Shown in pieces: positions 10,495-37,781 of a DNA stretch of 49,632 nucleotides (positions are counted from its first letter, which is position 1; every line of letters begins with the position of its first letter). Under the pieces are notes generated by a model. It was not told the origin of the DNA and did no database searches. It worked only from the letters and a program-made list of their open reading frames with translations. A program made the position numbers and the translations under genes. Source of the stretch: Candidatus Nitrosocosmicus sp. (GTDB lineage: Archaea > Thermoproteota > Nitrososphaeria > Nitrososphaerales > Nitrososphaeraceae); contig JAPSGR010000012.1 in assembly GCA_031177355.1 (NCBI GenBank), positions 1-49,632 on the forward strand, in the 5' to 3' direction.

Positions 10495-11445
10495 ATGTTG
10501 ATCATTATTAAAATAATGAATTCGATTAGTAATGGCTTCAATAGAGTTAATACTGCTAAGACAAATAATAAAGGACTGGCTGATGTGCCCTTAAAATATC
10601 AAGACAAAGAACCTAGAATGCAAAGAAAGTCTAATGAGACTAATTCATCAACACGTAAAAGAGACCAGAAGGATTTAGATGTATCTTTTAAAAGACAAAA
10701 AGGAACAAGTAATGATGATGATGATCAGCAGCAACAAGGAGAGGTAAAAGAGGTTAAAGATAGTAGTAGATTAGAGACTATAAACATTAAGAAATATTTT
10801 GATCCAACTATCTATCAAATGCTATTAAGCCCTCAGGAGCACAAATTAAGAACCGAGAAATTGGTAATAGTATTTTGGGATATAGCAGGCTTTGCCACTT
10901 TATGCAACAGATTAAATAACTATCCCTTTATAATCGTAGACCTTTTAAAAAATGTTTTCAGCGAAGCTGAAAGGGTCATACTAAAGAATAATGGAATAAT
11001 AGATAAATTCATTGGAGATGGAATCATGGCTTTTTATGGATACCGTCAATCAAAAGAAAATCAAATGGCAATAGACGCAATTAATACCGCACTGGAATTA
11101 AGAGAAAAATTCAAGTTGGTCAATAAACAATTAACTAAACGACTAATCAAAGAACACCTTAATGATTATAAATTTAATATTAGTCTAAAATGTGGAATCC
11201 ACATTGGAGATGTTCTTATAGGTTTATTGGAAACAGAATACAGAAATCAAATTACTCTTATTGGTTCGAATGTCAATTTTGCCAACAGATTAGAGGGAAA
11301 AGCAGAAGATGATCAAATCATTGTTTCTGAAAACGTGCTGGAATTGGTTAAAGACAGTTTTGCATTTCAATCAATAGAACATGACATATATTCATATGGC
11401 AAAGTCAAAGTGTTTAACATCTTGTCAAAAAAGAATAATCTGTAA
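10495..11445 (+). CDS. Class III adenylate/guanylate cyclase-domain protein
   Basis: The 316-residue protein has a disordered, charged N-terminal third (about 1-95, with DDDDQQQQ at 74-81) followed by a short linker helix and a class III cyclase catalytic domain (about 121-315). Metal-binding Asp are present in FWDIAGF (D129) and FIGDGIMAF (D175), and the preceding Lys of DKFIGD fits adenine recognition. The transition-state Asn/Arg are present in VNFANRLEG, and the second purine-recognition position is Thr (ITLIG), as in class IIIb adenylate cyclases. No sensor domain or membrane segment was recognised, so the input may be the N-terminal tail or a partner. The ATG is 26 nt after a TTTTAAAAAA TATA-like box. 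cAMP signalling in these archaea is poorly understood. Confidence 0.85.
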   Translation: MLIIIKIMNSISNGFNRVNTAKTNNKGLADVPLKYQDKEPRMQRKSNETNSSTRKRDQKDLDVSFKRQKGTSNDDDDQQQQGEVKEVKDSSRLETINIKKYFDPTIYQMLLSPQEHKLRTEKLVIVFWDIAGFATLCNRLNNYPFIIVDLLKNVFSEAERVILKNNGIIDKFIGDGIMAFYGYRQSKENQMAIDAINTALELREKFKLVNKQLTKRLIKEHLNDYKFNISLKCGIHIGDVLIGLLETEYRNQITLIGSNVNFANRLEGKAEDDQIIVSENVLELVKDSFAFQSIEHDIYSYGKVKVFNILSKKNNL

Positions 11446-15614: not shown

Positions 15615-17102
15615 TTATTGACCCGTAGGATATGTATCCGGTACATCCTTATTTCTTTCATAGTGGACATGCAAAGGAGTTATAGCTGTAGTTTTGTCAA
15701 TAAATACTAAAGAATCATAACGTGATTGTAGTTTAGTAGGAACATAGTTCCTGTAACTATCATATTTAGGATTATACACTACTCCAATGGCTCTTTGTGT
15801 CATGATTTCTGTCTCTTTCTCTTTTTGTTCCTTTCTCGTATTGTATTTCTCTATATCAAACGAAAATTCAATATTCTTGTAGGATTTAGTTGAAATGTTT
15901 TTTCGATCTTCTATTTTTTTAAACAATAGTAGTTTATCACTACTATTGCCTTTTTGACTTTTATTATCGTTATCAATATCATGTAATAGTTTATCCCAAC
16001 TCCCTTCTTTTGCAGGAGGTACATTCATAGTTTGCATTTTTGCACCCCATCTGTCTGCAGCAATAACTGTTCCACTATATGTGCTAAATCCGACCAGAAT
16101 AGTATTATGATCACCTTTTTTTTCTCTCACTAGTTGACCAAGATTGATCATTCCAGAATTACTCATATCAGTAAACCGCGCATCGCCAATATGGGTATTA
16201 TGAGCCCATACAATTGCTTTTGGTTGCTTCTTCTTGTTTGCTTTTCGATGAAAATCAATTAGGCGTTCTAATGTGTTCATCATATGAGTATCACGTAAAT
16301 TCCAGGAATTAACATCGCCTTTCAGCATGGTACGGTAGTATTTCTCTGCTTCTTTCGCAGTTATTGCGTTCTGTTCAGCCTGAAAATAATCTTCATTTCT
16401 ACCATAATTTTTTTTTGTATAGAAATCTTGTTTACTCCGTAGAGCAGTTAGGACATGAATTACTTCTTTTTCGCAGTTTTCTGGTACAAATGCAGCAGTC
16501 CTAGCATAGGCGTCAACTTCTCTGTTGTATGGATCAAAGCAATTGTAAGCAGTCATTGCAGTATTCAGAGCACTTGGGTCCACTCTTTTCAAATACCTAA
16601 TTATCTCTTCCATGGATTCCCAGAGGCTGTATACGTCCAATCCATAGAATCCAACTCCTTCCGACTCGGAATTATAATCTTTGGCGTTGTTGTGGTCATT
16701 AAATGATTTTAACCATTCTACTAGTTCAACCATCTCTCTATTAGCCCACATCCAAGTTGGCCATCTATTAAACGAATGTAAGACATCAAATGCATTCCCG
16801 TGGGATTCAGAGCATTTTATGTATTTGTTAACCCTAAAACAATCAGGCCAATCACCCTCGACTGCAATAAATGAAAATTCTTTTTCTCTTATTAGACGCT
16901 TTGATATTTCAGAACGCCACTTGTAGAATTCTGACGTTCCATGCGAAGCCTCCCCTAATAACACATATTGGGAATCTCCGATGTAATCTACTAATTTATT
17001 GATGTCACTAGGAGAGTTTAGTAAACTATAATCAAGATTAGGCAAGTTCCTTACTTTCAAAAAAGTATCATGAATAAAATATAAAAACAGAGTATAAAGC
17101 AT
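15615..17102 (-). CDS. Erythromycin-esterase-family protein
   Basis: The 495-residue protein of the erythromycin esterase (PF05139-type) family carries LLGEASHGTSEFY (E51, H54), AVEGDWPD (E82) and WAHNTHIGD (H301, H304), the conserved Glu/His set of the EreA/EreB fold. It ends with the family's characteristic HYERNKDVPDTYP segment. Hydrophilic insertions (Asn/Lys/Ser-rich, about 382-430) are unlike the bacterial enzymes. Most family members outside antibiotic-resistance cassettes have no shown macrolide activity, so resistance is not claimed. The N-terminal 14 residues are doubtful: a TTG at 17060 follows plausible TATA sequences lying inside the longer frame. It is monocistronic. Confidence 0.88.
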   Translation of the reverse strand: MLYTLFLYFIHDTFLKVRNLPNLDYSLLNSPSDINKLVDYIGDSQYVLLGEASHGTSEFYKWRSEISKRLIREKEFSFIAVEGDWPDCFRVNKYIKCSESHGNAFDVLHSFNRWPTWMWANREMVELVEWLKSFNDHNNAKDYNSESEGVGFYGLDVYSLWESMEEIIRYLKRVDPSALNTAMTAYNCFDPYNREVDAYARTAAFVPENCEKEVIHVLTALRSKQDFYTKKNYGRNEDYFQAEQNAITAKEAEKYYRTMLKGDVNSWNLRDTHMMNTLERLIDFHRKANKKKQPKAIVWAHNTHIGDARFTDMSNSGMINLGQLVREKKGDHNTILVGFSTYSGTVIAADRWGAKMQTMNVPPAKEGSWDKLLHDIDNDNKSQKGNSSDKLLLFKKIEDRKNISTKSYKNIEFSFDIEKYNTRKEQKEKETEIMTQRAIGVVYNPKYDSYRNYVPTKLQSRYDSLVFIDKTTAITPLHVHYERNKDVPDTYPTGQ

Positions 17103-28302: not shown

Positions 28303-29232
28303 GTGTCTGAAGGTCCTGAAGTTAAGATAGCAGCAGATAAAATTTCTGTAGCATTATCAAATGGAATAACAATTGAGAATATAATACATAACAAAATTAG
28401 CAACGAATTCAAAAATAAAATAATAGGATCTTCTGTAGAATATGTTAGAACATTTGGGAAAAATATTGTGATAAGATTTTCATCCACGGTTTATCTAAGA
28501 AATCACATGATGATGTGGGGTAAATGGAGAATTTATGATAGAGAAAATTATGAAAATGGAAGTGCTAGACCACCGCCAAGATCACATCGTACCTTCTTTT
28601 ATAAACAACCAAAAAAAGAACTAAAGAATCATGACCAAACTGAAAAGAACGAGATAATAGATGTTAGAAAAGATTCAAGAGCAAGGCTAACAATCGTAAC
28701 TGCCGATAAGGTCTTGGTCCAATTCAATGGCCCAATAATTGAATTTTCATTTGTGGACCCTTCAACTAAGCCGCCTATTTCGTTATTAGGTCCAGATGGA
28801 TTAAAAAATGATTATGATAAAGACCAAGTACTATCTAATTTAGTAGCAAAATCGAATAGAGATAAGAGTCTGGTAATTTCTAAAGCCCTTTTGGATCAAC
28901 AGATAGTATCTGGGATAGGAAATAAATACAAATCAGAGATACTATTTTTAAATCAAATTTTCCCTTTCATATCTGTGACTTCACTATCACAACATGATTT
29001 AGAGCAACTTGTATTAAATATTCCAAAAATACTCAATATCGGCTATATCAATAATGGTAGAACACGACTACCTTCTTCAAGTCATGAAAAGATTACATGG
29101 GATACTACACATTGGGTTTTCAGGAGGACTGGAAAACAATGCTGGAAATGCGGATCAAAAATATTATCTGAGAAAAAAACGACATCAAGGTCAACTTTTT
29201 GGTGTCCTTCATGTCAATTTATTAGAGAATAG
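28303..29232 (+). CDS. Fpg/Nei-family DNA glycosylase/AP lyase (endonuclease VIII-like)
   Basis: The 309-residue protein starts at GTG. Family landmarks are the N-terminal SEGPEVKIAADK (E3 conserved), K53 on the beta-hairpin (RTFGKNIVIRF), the H2TH region LLDQQIVSGIGNKYKSEILFLNQ (about 197-219) and a C-terminal zinc finger with C280, C283, C301, C304 and the catalytic-loop R296 (TTSRSTFWCPSC). The residue exposed after Met removal is Ser and not Pro, the usual Schiff-base nucleophile. An insertion of about 20 charged residues (about 102-124) makes it longer than usual Nei (about 265). It probably removes oxidised bases. Ligase, Ku and LigD follow downstream, consistent with a repair neighbourhood. 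Confidence 0.9.
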   Translation: MSEGPEVKIAADKISVALSNGITIENIIHNKISNEFKNKIIGSSVEYVRTFGKNIVIRFSSTVYLRNHMMMWGKWRIYDRENYENGSARPPPRSHRTFFYKQPKKELKNHDQTEKNEIIDVRKDSRARLTIVTADKVLVQFNGPIIEFSFVDPSTKPPISLLGPDGLKNDYDKDQVLSNLVAKSNRDKSLVISKALLDQQIVSGIGNKYKSEILFLNQIFPFISVTSLSQHDLEQLVLNIPKILNIGYINNGRTRLPSSSHEKITWDTTHWVFRRTGKQCWKCGSKILSEKKTTSRSTFWCPSCQFIRE

Positions 29233-29327: not shown

Positions 29328-31130
29328 CTATTGGTTAATTTTATTTTTTATATGAAATTGAGCCTGATAAATTTTTTGAACTTTCTCTACATCGTCAATA
29401 TCATTAACATTCTTATCATATCTTATGTTCTTTATCCTAGGAAAACGTAATGCATATCCACTATCATGGCGATCGCTTTTTTGTATAGTATCAAATGATA
29501 CCTCTAGAACTATTTCAGGCTTTACTGTGAGTTGACTACCTTCATCTTTTATGATGAGTGTTTTCAGTTTATTTGTCATGTAATCTATTTCACTGTTTGA
29601 AAGTCCTGAATAAGCCTTACCAATAATCCTCAAAGTGTCAGTAGAGTTTGGTATGAGAGTATTATTATGTTCATTTGGACCAAGTTTAAGGCCTTTTATT
29701 GCGAGCGTATAGTCTGAAAGTGTACCAGCTCTTTTTCCATGACCATATTCAGCCTTAACTACTACAGCGTCAATTGTATCTAGCTCCTCTTTCAGCTTTA
29801 TCCAGTATTTACCCCGCTTTCCTGGATGATACTTTGACTCGGGATCTTTTAGTATAAGACCTTCATGTCCTTCATTTCTGCTTTTTCTAAAATTCAAATT
29901 TATTTCGTCACCTGTGTTAACAAGAAAGCTCTTTGGAATGACAATATTGTCGTCACCTAACAATAAGCAAGCCAGTAGTTTTTTTCTGGCAGTCAGATCT
30001 TCTCTTATGACAGACCTGTTTTCATAAAACAGGATATCATAAACAATGTACTGAACTGGAATTTCTTTTAAAATAGCATTCGTTATCATTTTTTTTCTTA
30101 AACGTTTTTGTAGTTCTTGAAATGGTAAAGGTTTTTTGTCTTTATATGCAATAAGTTCACCGTCTAAAACAATGTCAATTGTGTCTGTATTCCTCTCCCT
30201 TTCGATTTTCTTTTCTCTTATTTTTAATGCAGAATCTACTAATTCCGGAAATGCATAGGAGATATCGCTGAGATTTCTAGAAAAAAGTTTACAATTATGT
30301 CCAAATTTGTGCAATTGTAACCTAATACCATCATATTTGTTTTCACAAAATATAGGTTTATTAAAGTATTCAAATATTTCGTCACCGGTAAACATAACAT
30401 CAGCTAGCATAAAGTTCATCGGTACAAATGGCTTTAATGTTACTGATTGTAATTTGTCGTTCTTTGATAACAACGCCACATTACCAACATCACCTGAAAC
30501 TAGTAATGCTTCTCTAACACTTTCAACACTTTTATCAAATGCTTTTGCAATGGCCATTTCTACTAACCCTTCATAAGATCCAATCCGCATTTCATTCGTA
30601 ACTATTTTTACCAAGTATTTAGCCTCCAATGGCGAACATCTCAGAAGTAACCCTTTGAGAATATTTTTCTTATCACTATTGGAGTTAGGTCCACTTTGGT
30701 TCGCAATTTTTTTAAATTGCGTGTAAATTTCACCTAACGTAAGGCTATCGGACTGATTTTCAACATAACTAAAAAGCGTTACGGTCTTCTTTTTGGTCAA
30801 GGCATATTCTGCAATGCTACCCATATCACCATGTTTTAAATGAATTTTTGCAATATCCTCCTCAGTTAGATCAGATATCTCCAGTATGGATTGCATAATA
30901 GTCTTAAAACCTATGTTCAAAATATATAGAGAGCCTCGAGAAAAGACTCTTCCCGAGAAAAACAAAACAGCTTGGTATAATGAATCTTCATCCAAGGATA
31001 ATAGATACCTTGCTATAATATCGATCTTCTTGTTTTTGCTTGCCGTTATTCGTACTAGTTCACAAGCCTCTGTAAACAAAGAGAAATTAAATGTACTTTT
31101 GGAGTAGATATCATTCATTCTCCCAGTCAA
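29328..31130 (-). CDS. lig: ATP-dependent DNA ligase (archaeal type I)
   Basis: The 600-residue protein has the three domains of archaeal replicative ligases. An N-terminal DNA-binding domain (about 1-225) precedes the adenylation domain with motif I ENKYDGIRLQ (nucleophile K265) and later motifs VLDGELIAY (III), EGLILKDPESKYHPGKRGKYWIK (IV-V region; longer than quoted motifs in bacteria). A C-terminal OB-fold ends near FPRIKNIRYDKN (motif VI region). It seals nicks in replication and repair and is the general cellular ligase expected of an archaeon. A later ATG (M5) is an alternative start. It is convergent with the Nei-like gene across 95 bp. Confidence 0.93.
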   Translation of the reverse strand: MTGRMNDIYSKSTFNFSLFTEACELVRITASKNKKIDIIARYLLSLDEDSLYQAVLFFSGRVFSRGSLYILNIGFKTIMQSILEISDLTEEDIAKIHLKHGDMGSIAEYALTKKKTVTLFSYVENQSDSLTLGEIYTQFKKIANQSGPNSNSDKKNILKGLLLRCSPLEAKYLVKIVTNEMRIGSYEGLVEMAIAKAFDKSVESVREALLVSGDVGNVALLSKNDKLQSVTLKPFVPMNFMLADVMFTGDEIFEYFNKPIFCENKYDGIRLQLHKFGHNCKLFSRNLSDISYAFPELVDSALKIREKKIERERNTDTIDIVLDGELIAYKDKKPLPFQELQKRLRKKMITNAILKEIPVQYIVYDILFYENRSVIREDLTARKKLLACLLLGDDNIVIPKSFLVNTGDEINLNFRKSRNEGHEGLILKDPESKYHPGKRGKYWIKLKEELDTIDAVVVKAEYGHGKRAGTLSDYTLAIKGLKLGPNEHNNTLIPNSTDTLRIIGKAYSGLSNSEIDYMTNKLKTLIIKDEGSQLTVKPEIVLEVSFDTIQKSDRHDSGYALRFPRIKNIRYDKNVNDIDDVEKVQKIYQAQFHIKNKINQ

Positions 31131-33048: not shown

Positions 33049-33906
33049 TTGGGTACAAGGAGTGTTTGGAATGGAAGTATATCTTTTGGATTGGTCAACA
33101 TTCCAGTAAAGTTATTCACAGTTACAGACAACAGTAGTGAATTTTCGTTTAATCAATTAGATGGTAAAGGACATAAAATTCAATATAAAAAGTGGTGTCC
33201 TGTAGAGGAAAGAGAAGTTTCTTATGAAGAGATAAAAAAAGGTTACAAATTAGCAAACGATGAGTATATTATTATCGAGAAAGAGGATTTAGACAACATA
33301 AAAGCAATTACTACTAAGACAATTGATATAAAAGAATTTATTGATTTAAAAGATTTCGATACTATCCTTATTGAAAAAAGTTACTATGTTTCCCCATTTT
33401 CCGAAAAAAGAGGAAAAAAAGGAGCAAGAAGTAAACATAAGGAAAGTATCGCCATGGCATCTAACAAGGCATATTACTTATTTGTAATTTCACTTAAAGA
33501 AACAAACAAGATAGCAATAGGCAAGGTTGTATTCAAAGATAAGGAACACTTGGTGAGTATTCGTCCTTATCAGAAAGGTTTGTTAATGCATCAGCTGATG
33601 TATCAAGAAGATATCACACCAATTGACGAAATAGAGGGTATGCCTGGTTCTGAGTCTGCCATATCCAGTGCAGCAATAGACGACAAGGAATTGGAACTTG
33701 GGAAAATGTTGATTGAAAATTTATCAAATAACCAGTTTGATGTTACAAATTATACAGATGAATACTCAAAACAGTTGGAAGGTATTATTGATGCAAAATC
33801 AAAAGGAATTACATATAAGGCAGAGGAGGTGCCTAAATCTCCCGATAATAACGATAATCTTCTTGAAGCATTAAAAGCAAGTATTCAGAGAAGCAAAATG
33901 TCATAA
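33049..33906 (+). CDS. ku: Bacterial-type Ku protein (NHEJ end binding)
   Basis: The 285-residue protein begins with TTG, the only possible start because an in-frame TAA lies 18 nt upstream. The N-terminus TRSVWNGSISFGLVNIPVKL is the Ku signature; the beta-barrel core continues through WCPVEEREVSYEEI and ends with the ring-forming and C-terminal regions (SIRPYQKGLLMHQLMY, FDVTNYTDEYSKQLEGII). The length is normal for bacterial homodimeric Ku. It binds DNA ends and recruits LigD. The LigD gene is convergent, with 8 nt between the stop codons. This pairing is the rule in bacterial NHEJ but very unusual in archaea. Confidence 0.95.
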   Translation: MGTRSVWNGSISFGLVNIPVKLFTVTDNSSEFSFNQLDGKGHKIQYKKWCPVEEREVSYEEIKKGYKLANDEYIIIEKEDLDNIKAITTKTIDIKEFIDLKDFDTILIEKSYYVSPFSEKRGKKGARSKHKESIAMASNKAYYLFVISLKETNKIAIGKVVFKDKEHLVSIRPYQKGLLMHQLMYQEDITPIDEIEGMPGSESAISSAAIDDKELELGKMLIENLSNNQFDVTNYTDEYSKQLEGIIDAKSKGITYKAEEVPKSPDNNDNLLEALKASIQRSKMS

Positions 33907-33914
33907 AATAGGTA

Positions 33915-36872
33915 TCAAATATCTAAACTTGAAATCCTCCCAAGAATTTCTTCTAAATTTTGTTTACTAGATAAAAGACCCACCCATGGATTACTCCTTC
34001 TGTACACATCAGGCACATTGAATAAAGTAAATTCCTGTGGATTGATTTCATCCAGTTTTTCCCACTCAAGAGGAACTGATACTGTTGCTCCCTCTACTGG
34101 CCTCACAGAGAAAACAGAAGCCAGCGTCTTTCCAAATGAATTTTGGTTATAATCAAAGAATATTTTACCTTTTCTATCAGATGTTTTCCAATTAGTAGTA
34201 ATTTTGTTTGGTACACGTTGATTCAAGATTTGAGAAATGACTTTGGCAAATTGTCGCGTTTGATCATATGTATAATAATTAACTATTGGTACAAAGATGT
34301 GCAAGCCTGTTTTTCCAGACGTCTTTACAAATGATTTTATTTTTAGATCTTCAAATATCCGCTTCAGACTATAAGCGATTTCAACAGTTGCCTTAAAAGA
34401 TTCTAAGTTATACAATGGTTCTTTAGATTCGTCTTGAGTATCAATATTGATATATGGATCCAAATCAAAAATAATAAAATCAGGATAATTCAAACCACAT
34501 TTATCATTCTCAACATTATTCACATTATCACATTGATCATAGTCAAAAACTCTGCTGTTCCATGGATGAATTTCTATGCATCCAAGGTTTATAAGCCACC
34601 GCAAGGTTTGCTGATTGTTGCAAACGATATAATTAATTGCACTATTATTTGACTCAGAATAAACTTTAACGGTTTTTACAAATCCGGGTCTCTTGGTCTT
34701 CCAATCCTTTTGATAAAATGCATCCCCAGTTATACCATTTGGATACCTGCTTAGTGATAATGGTCGGTCTATTATAAATGGTAACAAATGTGTATACATT
34801 TTTGAATAATATTCAATTAAATCACCTTTAGTGACGGACGAATGACTCTTTGTCTGTGGCCAAAATTCCTTCTCAACATTGGATACAGGTAGTCCATCTT
34901 TTGATCCAGAGATCTCATTCATTTTACTATTATTGTTTTTAAAGATATTAGAAGTAAGATCATTTTCTCTCGATCTTTCATTTATTTTGACTATGGGAAT
35001 AATGGTATCTATCGTGTTTTCGATAGTACATTCAGAAGGGGATTTGTCCGTTCGAATTCTTTGAAAAATTGGAGCACGCATTATTTTATTGTTAGTCCAA
35101 TCCGTAAATTTAACTTCAATTACTACTTTAGGTTTAACCCATATTGTATGTCTATTAAGATAGGGAACATAATCGATGGGGGATGATGAGACAACCAAAT
35201 CCCTCAATATTTCATAAATATCAGATAGGACACCACAACTGAATCCGCTTCCCGTATGACCAATAAATATTAATTTTGGGTTATTAATTGTAGTTGTATT
35301 TTGTGAAGATTTATCAATTGCTGCAAGTAAAAGAGATCCAAAATAATTTTTTCGATTGCCTTCTCCTTTTGTATACCCTATGATAATGCAATCTTGGGTT
35401 TTGACATTTTTGATCTTAAGCCAACTTTTTGACCTTATTCCTTCAACATATTGACTTGATTTTAATTTGGCAATTACTCCCTCAAGGTTCATTTTCTGTA
35501 TCGTTTCAAAAACATTTAATCCAGCCTCTTCTACAAAATCAGATATTCTTATTAAGCCGTTTTTTTCAGTAGTAAAGAGATGGCTTAAAATCTTCCTCCT
35601 CTGGATAAATGGATAAGAAGTCAAATTTTGTCCATCCAAATATAATATATCGAATATGTAAAGAACGACAGGATAAATTTTTGAAAGGTATTGAATGTTG
35701 CGGTCTGATGTCACATTCATCCTTTTCTGGTGTTTTTGAAAATTAGGATATCCCTTACTGTCTAATAGGACTATTTCACCATCCAAGACGACAAAATCCC
35801 TAAAGTTATTTTTCATGAATGCGTTTTTGAAGGCATTTTCTAGTTCAGGATATCGATAAGTTATATCCTCACCGCTCCGAGATTTGATCTTGCAAGTTTG
35901 GGTTAGTTTGTCTACAAGTGTTATAGCCCTAATACCATCCCATTTAATCTCAAAGACCCAATCCCTGTTGTTAAATGCGGTATCTGCAGCACAAGAAAGC
36001 ATAGGTTTTACCCTCTCAAAAAATATTAGTTTTGGTAAGTGATTCAGAGATGAATTGTTAGCAGTGATATCTTTTTGGGTTTCATCCAACTGGCAACCAC
36101 ACTCGGCTGTTTGATAATGTTCTTTAGCAATTTCTTTTACTTTGCAGTTATTCTTTTGAATTTTAGTAGTGTGATCATCAACTATGTTCGTATGAGTTGT
36201 TTCAGTTAGATCAGGTTTATTATGACTTTCAGCTTTTTGATTTTTATTTTTGTTGTCTTTGGATGCCACTTCAATTGCATATTTGTCTTTATGTTTAATC
36301 AAAAGCCATTGATTGGAAGTTCTAGTCTTTACTAGAGAGAATTTTCCCTTTATCTTTTGTCCGTATAGGTTAAACGTGACTTTTCCTTTTTTATGTATGA
36401 TATCGGATATATCTTCAGAGAGAGAAGTAGTGTGAGGGGGTTTTTTTCCAGAAGATTTCGCGTCAATTTCGGATTCTAAAGAAAAAGTACCAATATCCCA
36501 AACAGTAACTGAACCAGCACCATAATTACCTTTAGGAATTATACCTTCAAAGGTAAGATAATCGATCGGATGATCCTCAGTTCGAATAGCAAGTCTTTTG
36601 ACAGAGGGATCAAGCGAAGGTCCTTTTGGAATTGCCCATGATAACAAGACATTATTCTTGACAGATTCGAGTCTGAAATCAAAGTGCAAGTGAGTTGCTT
36701 TATGTTTTTGAAAAACAAAGCGATGGATTGTTGCTAATTCGTCGTGTGTTGTAGGATTTAGATTTATTTTGTCAATATATTCATTTTTTCTCTCAGAACC
36801 GTTATCTCCGCTTGGCTCCGGCGAGATCTTAAAGTTTCTTTTTCCTTTATATTCTTCTAACATTTGAAACAC
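33915..36872 (-). CDS. ligD: LigD: phosphoesterase-ligase-polymerase NHEJ enzyme
   Basis: The 985-residue multidomain enzyme has an N-terminal 3'-phosphoesterase (about 45-195) with H57, H63, D65, R67 and H101 in [15 protein letters not shown] and EDHPIDY. An ATP-dependent ligase (about 285-620) follows with motif I FEIKWDG (K310), LDGEIVLLD and EGVIAK. The C-terminal primase-polymerase (about 680-985) has FDLDP (D803, D805), SGKTGLH and FFDYNQN (D908). All catalytic residues are intact. The PE-Lig-Pol order is that of Pseudomonas-type LigD, not the Pol-PE-Lig of mycobacteria. Between PE and ligase is a 90-residue Lys/Asn-rich linker. With Ku it completes NHEJ: end trimming, gap filling with ribonucleotides, sealing. 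Confidence 0.95.
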
Positions 36873-37538: not shown

Positions 37539-37781
37539 ATGATTTATGAATGCCCGAGCAAACATGTTTGCTTTAGCAAAGATGAATTAAACAATTGTGG
37601 TATGAGGGGCTGCGACAAACAAACGGTCAAAATAAGTTTAGAGAATATCAAGTGGTTTTATAAGATCAATAAGAATGGACTTTGTATTAATAGAGATGAT
37701 TTACACTTGATACTTGAAGATTCTAATATGCCAAGAGATGTTAAAACCAAAATACAAAGTATATTTTATGGCAATATCTAA
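37539..37781 (+). CDS. Small protein with Cys-rich N-terminus
   Basis: The 80-residue protein has C5, C11, C20 and C25 within the first 25 residues (YECPSKHVCFSKDELNNCGM), enough for one metal site, followed by helical segments (ISLENIKWFYKIN; NRDDLHLILEDSNMPRDVKTKIQ). No named family. It is a plausible zinc-binding module plus helical bundle. The gene is 98 bp upstream of the SRPBCC gene in the same direction and may share a transcript with it. Confidence 0.6.
   Translation: MIYECPSKHVCFSKDELNNCGMRGCDKQTVKISLENIKWFYKINKNGLCINRDDLHLILEDSNMPRDVKTKIQSIFYGNI

Follow-up and report, generated by a model that had tools for sequence, protein, structure and literature searches.

In archaeo-prokaryotic NHEJ (AP-NHEJ), Ku binds and bridges DNA ends, a polymerase (POL) fills in with ribonucleotides, a phosphoesterase (PE) resects 3' ends and a ligase (LIG) seals the join (PMC8656161, PMC4797286). 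These activities are encoded by separate operon genes in Methanocella paludicola (PMC4797286), as the sequence-only reading of the present locus had stated, and are fused in the order PE-LIG-POL in LigD of the Pseudomonas aeruginosa type (PRK05972). According to Abby et al. (2020; PMC7554672), the ancestor of Nitrososphaerales obtained a complete NHEJ complex from bacteria. NHEJ components have also been reported in arctic clades (PMC13006922), and the Ku of three Nitrosocosmicus species has been listed (PMC11936186). Bacterial-type NHEJ in Nitrososphaerales is already published, and the pair analysed here is a further instance, agreeing with the account of Abby et al. (2020), as far as the consulted part of that paper goes, in order, completeness of the complex and stated bacterial origin. 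The fusion architecture and a probable donor lineage, neither named in that part of the paper, are given below. To our knowledge, the new elements are an insertion marker in LigD, a count of joint losses and a POL, Ku, LIG-PE operon in other Thermoproteota.

The pair lies in a 49,632-nt stretch of DNA from Candidatus Nitrosocosmicus sp. (contig JAPSGR010000012.1; hereafter the window). The ORFs of Ku and LigD are both open and complete, and they converge, with stop codons (TAA and TGA) 8 nt apart:

33049-33906, plus strand: bacterial-type, single-domain Ku, a predicted DNA-end-binding homodimer, 285 aa, TTG start (TIGR02772, Pfam Ku and the C-terminal NLLEALKAS segment)
33907-33914: gap of 8 nt between the convergent stop codons, AATAGGTA (read directly from the sequence)
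33915-36872, minus strand: LigD, a PE-LIG-POL fusion, 985 aa, GTG start (TIGR02776, TIGR02777, TIGR02778 and TIGR02779 all above cut-off; alignment)
36258-36872, minus strand: PE (3'-phosphoesterase/ribonuclease) domain of LigD, residues 1-205 (Pfam LigD_N, TIGR02777, PDB matches, six catalytic residues)
35013-36023, minus strand: LIG (ATP-dependent ligase) domain of LigD, residues 284-620, nucleophile K310 (Pfam DNA_ligase_A_M and DNA_ligase_A_C, TIGR02779, PDB 1vs0)
33918-34910, minus strand: POL (primase-polymerase) domain of LigD, residues 655-985 (Pfam LigD_Prim-Pol 253.9 bits, TIGR02778, AlphaFold, Foldseek)
34485-34571, minus strand: POL loop with insertion 1, E767 to P797 (loop-length table and sequences; 26-40 residues in the family, 13 in ordinary LigDs)
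34326-34457, minus strand: POL loop with insertion 2, D805 of motif I to K850 (loop-length table and sequences; 44-52 residues in the family, 29-30 in ordinary LigDs)

In profile searches, Ku scored 229.9 bits against TIGR02772 (cut-off 150) and 142.3 bits against Pfam Ku. PF02735 was the sole domain detected in the Pfam search, with neither vWA nor SAP, indicating a single core domain. The core beta-barrel above the curated cut-off and the conserved short C-terminal segment, which alignment showed to be common to bacterial Ku, place the protein in TIGR02772, and its nearest solved structures are prokaryotic Ku. LigD has an alternative ATG start at 36863, three codons in, which agrees with the start in relatives. 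The whole protein scored 458.9 bits against TIGR02776 (DNA ligase D; cut-off 373.2), and its domains scored 169.0 (PE, TIGR02777; cut-off 144), 253.9 (LIG, TIGR02779; cut-off 227.75) and 218.8 bits (POL, TIGR02778; cut-off 214.7). With PE and POL residues taken as described in PMC8656161 and PMC4797286, LigD retains Q55, H57, H63, D65, R67, S78, E99, H101 and Y105 in PE, including the complete six-residue active site (H57, H63, D65, R67, H101, Y105); K310 (KWDG), DGE 364-366, E464 and K486/K488 in LIG; and D803, D805, H858 and D907 in POL, where D803, D805 and D907 form the Asp triad. These residues were invariant or nearly so in a 13-row alignment of nine family (Nitrososphaeraceae) and four bacterial sequences. 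The nearest solved structures of PE and POL are LigD, Prim-PolC or AP-NHEJ enzymes, the best PDB matches of PE being Methanocella 5dmp and P. aeruginosa 2lj6, and those of LIG are mycobacterial (1vs0) and other ATP-dependent ligases. The AlphaFold model of POL (pLDDT 93) matched LigD/Prim-PolC structures in Foldseek with E values of 1e-20 to 1e-28. Identification of Ku and LigD by chance is excluded. The sequence-only reading had proposed a convergent Ku and intact three-domain LigD, 8 nt between stops and all catalytic residues visible; the ORFs lie exactly where it had placed them, alignment bore out the residues and a domain search put all models above their curated cut-offs.

The predicted Ku, ligase, polymerase and phosphoesterase activities correspond to those of Methanocella AP-NHEJ, whereas that system lacks the POL insertions and the window carries, instead of split genes, one 985-aa ORF convergent with Ku. 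The comparison of LigD with the Pseudomonas order, made in the sequence-only reading, holds for domain order and catalytic residues; the protein nevertheless shares only about 28-31% identity with proteobacterial PE-LIG-POL proteins, reaches 628 bits over its full length against the curated 895 for the PRK05972 subfamily (NF004628), carries two additional POL insertions and belongs to another LigD lineage. The closest sequences (up to 605 bits) are the insert-type LigDs of Chloroflexota and Armatimonadota (defined below), which agree in fusion, domain order and both POL insertions, at 37-41% identity; Ku is tandem, divergent or unlinked in these bacteria where seen, but convergent in the window. 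Convergent LigD and Ku genes whose ends abut or overlap, a parallel to the window, were observed in Bacteroidota (L094, L095, L106, L113, L127). Bacteroidota, which gave the best plasmid hit, were ruled out as donor by the insertions and trees. Elsewhere, the window of this archaeon encodes an erythromycin esterase family protein (15615-17102; Pfam 387 bits) and a protein with an adenylate/guanylate cyclase catalytic domain (10495-11445).

Within the order, as sampled here, the system was seen in the window's own family only. A search of the window's genome and 60 relatives gave Ku matches in 24 of the 61, all Nitrososphaeraceae; the pair is not unique to this genome but belongs to a family-wide system. 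Near full-length fused LigD was likewise confined to this family. In the other sampled families of the order Ku was absent, and nothing beyond PE domains standing alone and ordinary ATP ligases was present. Of the 32 family genomes with a completeness of 83% or more, both genes were found in 20 and neither in 9, with Ku alone in one and LigD alone in two (Fisher p 1.8e-5, for rows that are not independent and presence calls partly from draft genomes). Independent pairs on the rpoB tree changed in the same direction 5-6 times versus 0-1 (p about 0.06). Four of 15 same-genus genomes (G003, G005, G006, G012) lacked both genes; therefore, the system is a dispensable, though regular, part of family genomes. 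Since the LigD tree roughly tracks genera, this patchy presence is most simply read as repeated joint loss: the family's common ancestor would already have had both Ku and LigD, and its descendants have mostly retained or lost the two as a unit. Departures from joint presence were also seen: in G015, about 12 stops interrupt what is left of Ku (C80:3245-3819), and LigD is intact (999 aa; L055); G035 has LigD and no Ku match; and the genus g9 genomes G022 and G029 carry two Ku genes each, with LigD on a separate contig (L025, L026, L029, L009).

The two POL insertions, which flank catalytic motif I, separate LigDs into two classes of loop length with no overlap. We defined insert-type LigD in this study by the lengthening of both loops, to at least 20 and at least 44 residues. 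Both insertions were present in all 14 family LigDs sampled, the window's own included, and, with loops of 20-43 and 44-52 residues, in 18 of 19 LigDs from Armatimonadota, 14 of 28 from Chloroflexota, 3 of 3 from Gamma/Betaproteobacteria and one 'CPR1' MAG. The 22 LigDs from other phyla and the eight POLs from other Thermoproteota had neither insertion, their loops, like those of every remaining row, being 13 and 29-30 residues long. Both insertions are also missing from the POL structures of M. tuberculosis, M. smegmatis, P. aeruginosa and Methanocella. In insertion 1, family LigDs (L018, L031, L055 and others) often have two cysteines (C...KCGLN), a possible metal or disulfide site; these were missing from the bacterial insert-type LigDs. 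In the LigD tree, the family formed one clade (support 100, starred) joined to LigDs of Armatimonadota, Chloroflexota and Gamma/Betaproteobacteria (99, starred), as it was in a POL-only tree (97). With 25 Chloroflexota and 18 Armatimonadota LigDs added, the sister group of the family was an insert-type Chloroflexota/Proteobacteria/CPR1 clade (support 91), and Armatimonadota fell outside this grouping. A LigD clade of the family with other Thermoproteota was nevertheless not rejected by AU tests (p 0.21 for POL; 0.60 and 0.33 for concatenations). Because sequence trees alone leave this kinship possible, the insertions carry the argument, and they point to the insert-type bacterial lineage as the kin of this LigD. 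Judged from these sequence features, LigD most likely entered these archaea from insert-type bacteria (Chloroflexota, Armatimonadota and a few Proteobacteria), the direction being suggested by the wide bacterial versus narrow archaeal distribution. The bacterial link implied by the transfer that the sequence-only reading suggested is supported for LigD, as kinship, by trees and insertions; bacterial acquisition was already published in 2020 (PMC7554672), and the Ku tree leans elsewhere.

The Ku tree joined the family to other Thermoproteota (support 84-87, unstarred) and not to the bacteria with kindred LigD, while the alternative with Chloroflexota/Armatimonadota was not rejected (AU p 0.10); for Ku, the tree does no more than lean towards other Thermoproteota. 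Ku was found in 12 of 300 genomes of the phylum besides the window's own, spread over three other families. In each of the 11 loci read (L161-L171; for example, L161 6964-10014, plus strand), the genes for POL, Ku and LIG-PE share a strand and in most are closely packed; LIG is fused ahead of PE, an unusual order, in ten, and the two are separate genes in one (L164). This operon, of which a limited literature search found no published account, shares the four activities with the window's pair and neighbours it in the Ku tree, but differs in its split POL, LIG-PE fusion and lack of POL insertions. The description of such systems as rare in archaea, made in the sequence-only reading, stands overall, but neither within Nitrososphaeraceae nor in some other Thermoproteota families, where the split operon occurs. 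Should Ku and LigD both descend vertically from an old Thermoproteota system of this kind, bacteria would have received insert-type LigD from archaea. The Ku grouping, a LIG tree without outgroup that unites the family with other Thermoproteota at 91 and the AU tests would agree with this, but we regard it as unlikely, given that other Thermoproteota have split genes in LIG-PE order and neither insertion in any of eight POLs, that fusion, domain order and insertions are common to family and bacterial LigDs, and that Ku was not found in the other sampled families of the order. It is conceivable, if still doubtful, that LigD came from insert-type bacteria and was later linked as a convergent pair with a Ku from a different source, archaeal or other, since the family falls in different places in the Ku tree and the LigD tree, and in several genera the two genes are not neighbours; Ku is short, however, its placement is unstarred and its sister position to the bacterial clade was not rejected. 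Were this Ku of other-Thermoproteota origin, Thermoproteota might tentatively be credited with two independently assembled NHEJ systems.

The archaeal setting is well anchored. Archaeal amoA (392 bits), in keeping with the suggested ammonia oxidiser, and rpoB were found in the window's own assembly, which is 2.32 Mb long and 97% complete; a search for SSU rRNA in this assembly found none, and the placement in Nitrososphaeraceae draws on amoA, relatedness and the literature. In two same-genus genomes, G007 (2.99 Mb) and G013 (3.43 Mb), each a chromosome in a single contig, the same convergent pair is present, and every other same-genus genome with Ku and LigD on one contig has the convergent pair. 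The contig is taken as archaeal because of amoA, rpoB and these two chromosomes, as the sequence-only reading had assumed; synteny recurs as well, with homologues of the CBS-protein and 37539-37781 neighbours kept in order beside Ku at 68-74% identity (L018, L021). Although Ku and LigD belong to bacterial protein families, bacterial contamination within the archaeal bin has virtually no probability and was ruled out by the single-contig relatives, the conserved neighbours, the flat GC along the window (about 0.29-0.35) and the clustering of both proteins inside their own archaeal family. Recent delivery by a mobile element was also rejected: flanking repeats are weak short matches only, the window has no tRNA and the pair is common across the genus. 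Near the pair, the window encodes an Fpg/Nei-type DNA glycosylase (28303-29232) and a second ATP-dependent DNA ligase (29328-31130; 600 aa), distinct from the housekeeping ligase at C93; the latter was rejected as an NHEJ part, being found order-wide, including in genomes without NHEJ. The position of these two genes 2-5 kb from the pair, the intact LigD without intact Ku in G015 and G035, and the gap-filling enzyme M. smegmatis Prim-PolC as the closest solved structure of POL in sequence and fold could suggest that the main task of LigD is not end joining but gap filling or excision repair. We consider this improbable: Ku co-occurs with and adjoins LigD, the complete PE-LIG-POL set is retained and the distribution of the second ligase is unlinked to NHEJ.

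We therefore favour a working AP-NHEJ pair, and consider it highly probable that the two genes form such a system, with a LigD of the insert-type bacterial lineage, ancestral to the family. We infer activity, partner binding, transfer direction and physiological role from sequence comparison. A Ku homodimer would encircle and bridge broken DNA ends and recruit LigD; POL would fill gaps, probably with a preference for ribonucleotides; PE would trim surplus 3' ribonucleotides and 3' phosphates; and LIG would close the nick with ATP. Desiccation in soil, named as an example in the sequence-only reading, may be a selective reason for retaining the pair. The POL insertions provide a testable marker of the source of LigD, and the family, having repeatedly lost both genes jointly, lends itself to comparisons that address the role of NHEJ in archaea. 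These results confirm that minimal two-protein NHEJ occurs regularly in the genomes of soil ammonia-oxidising archaea, which can nevertheless dispense with it.
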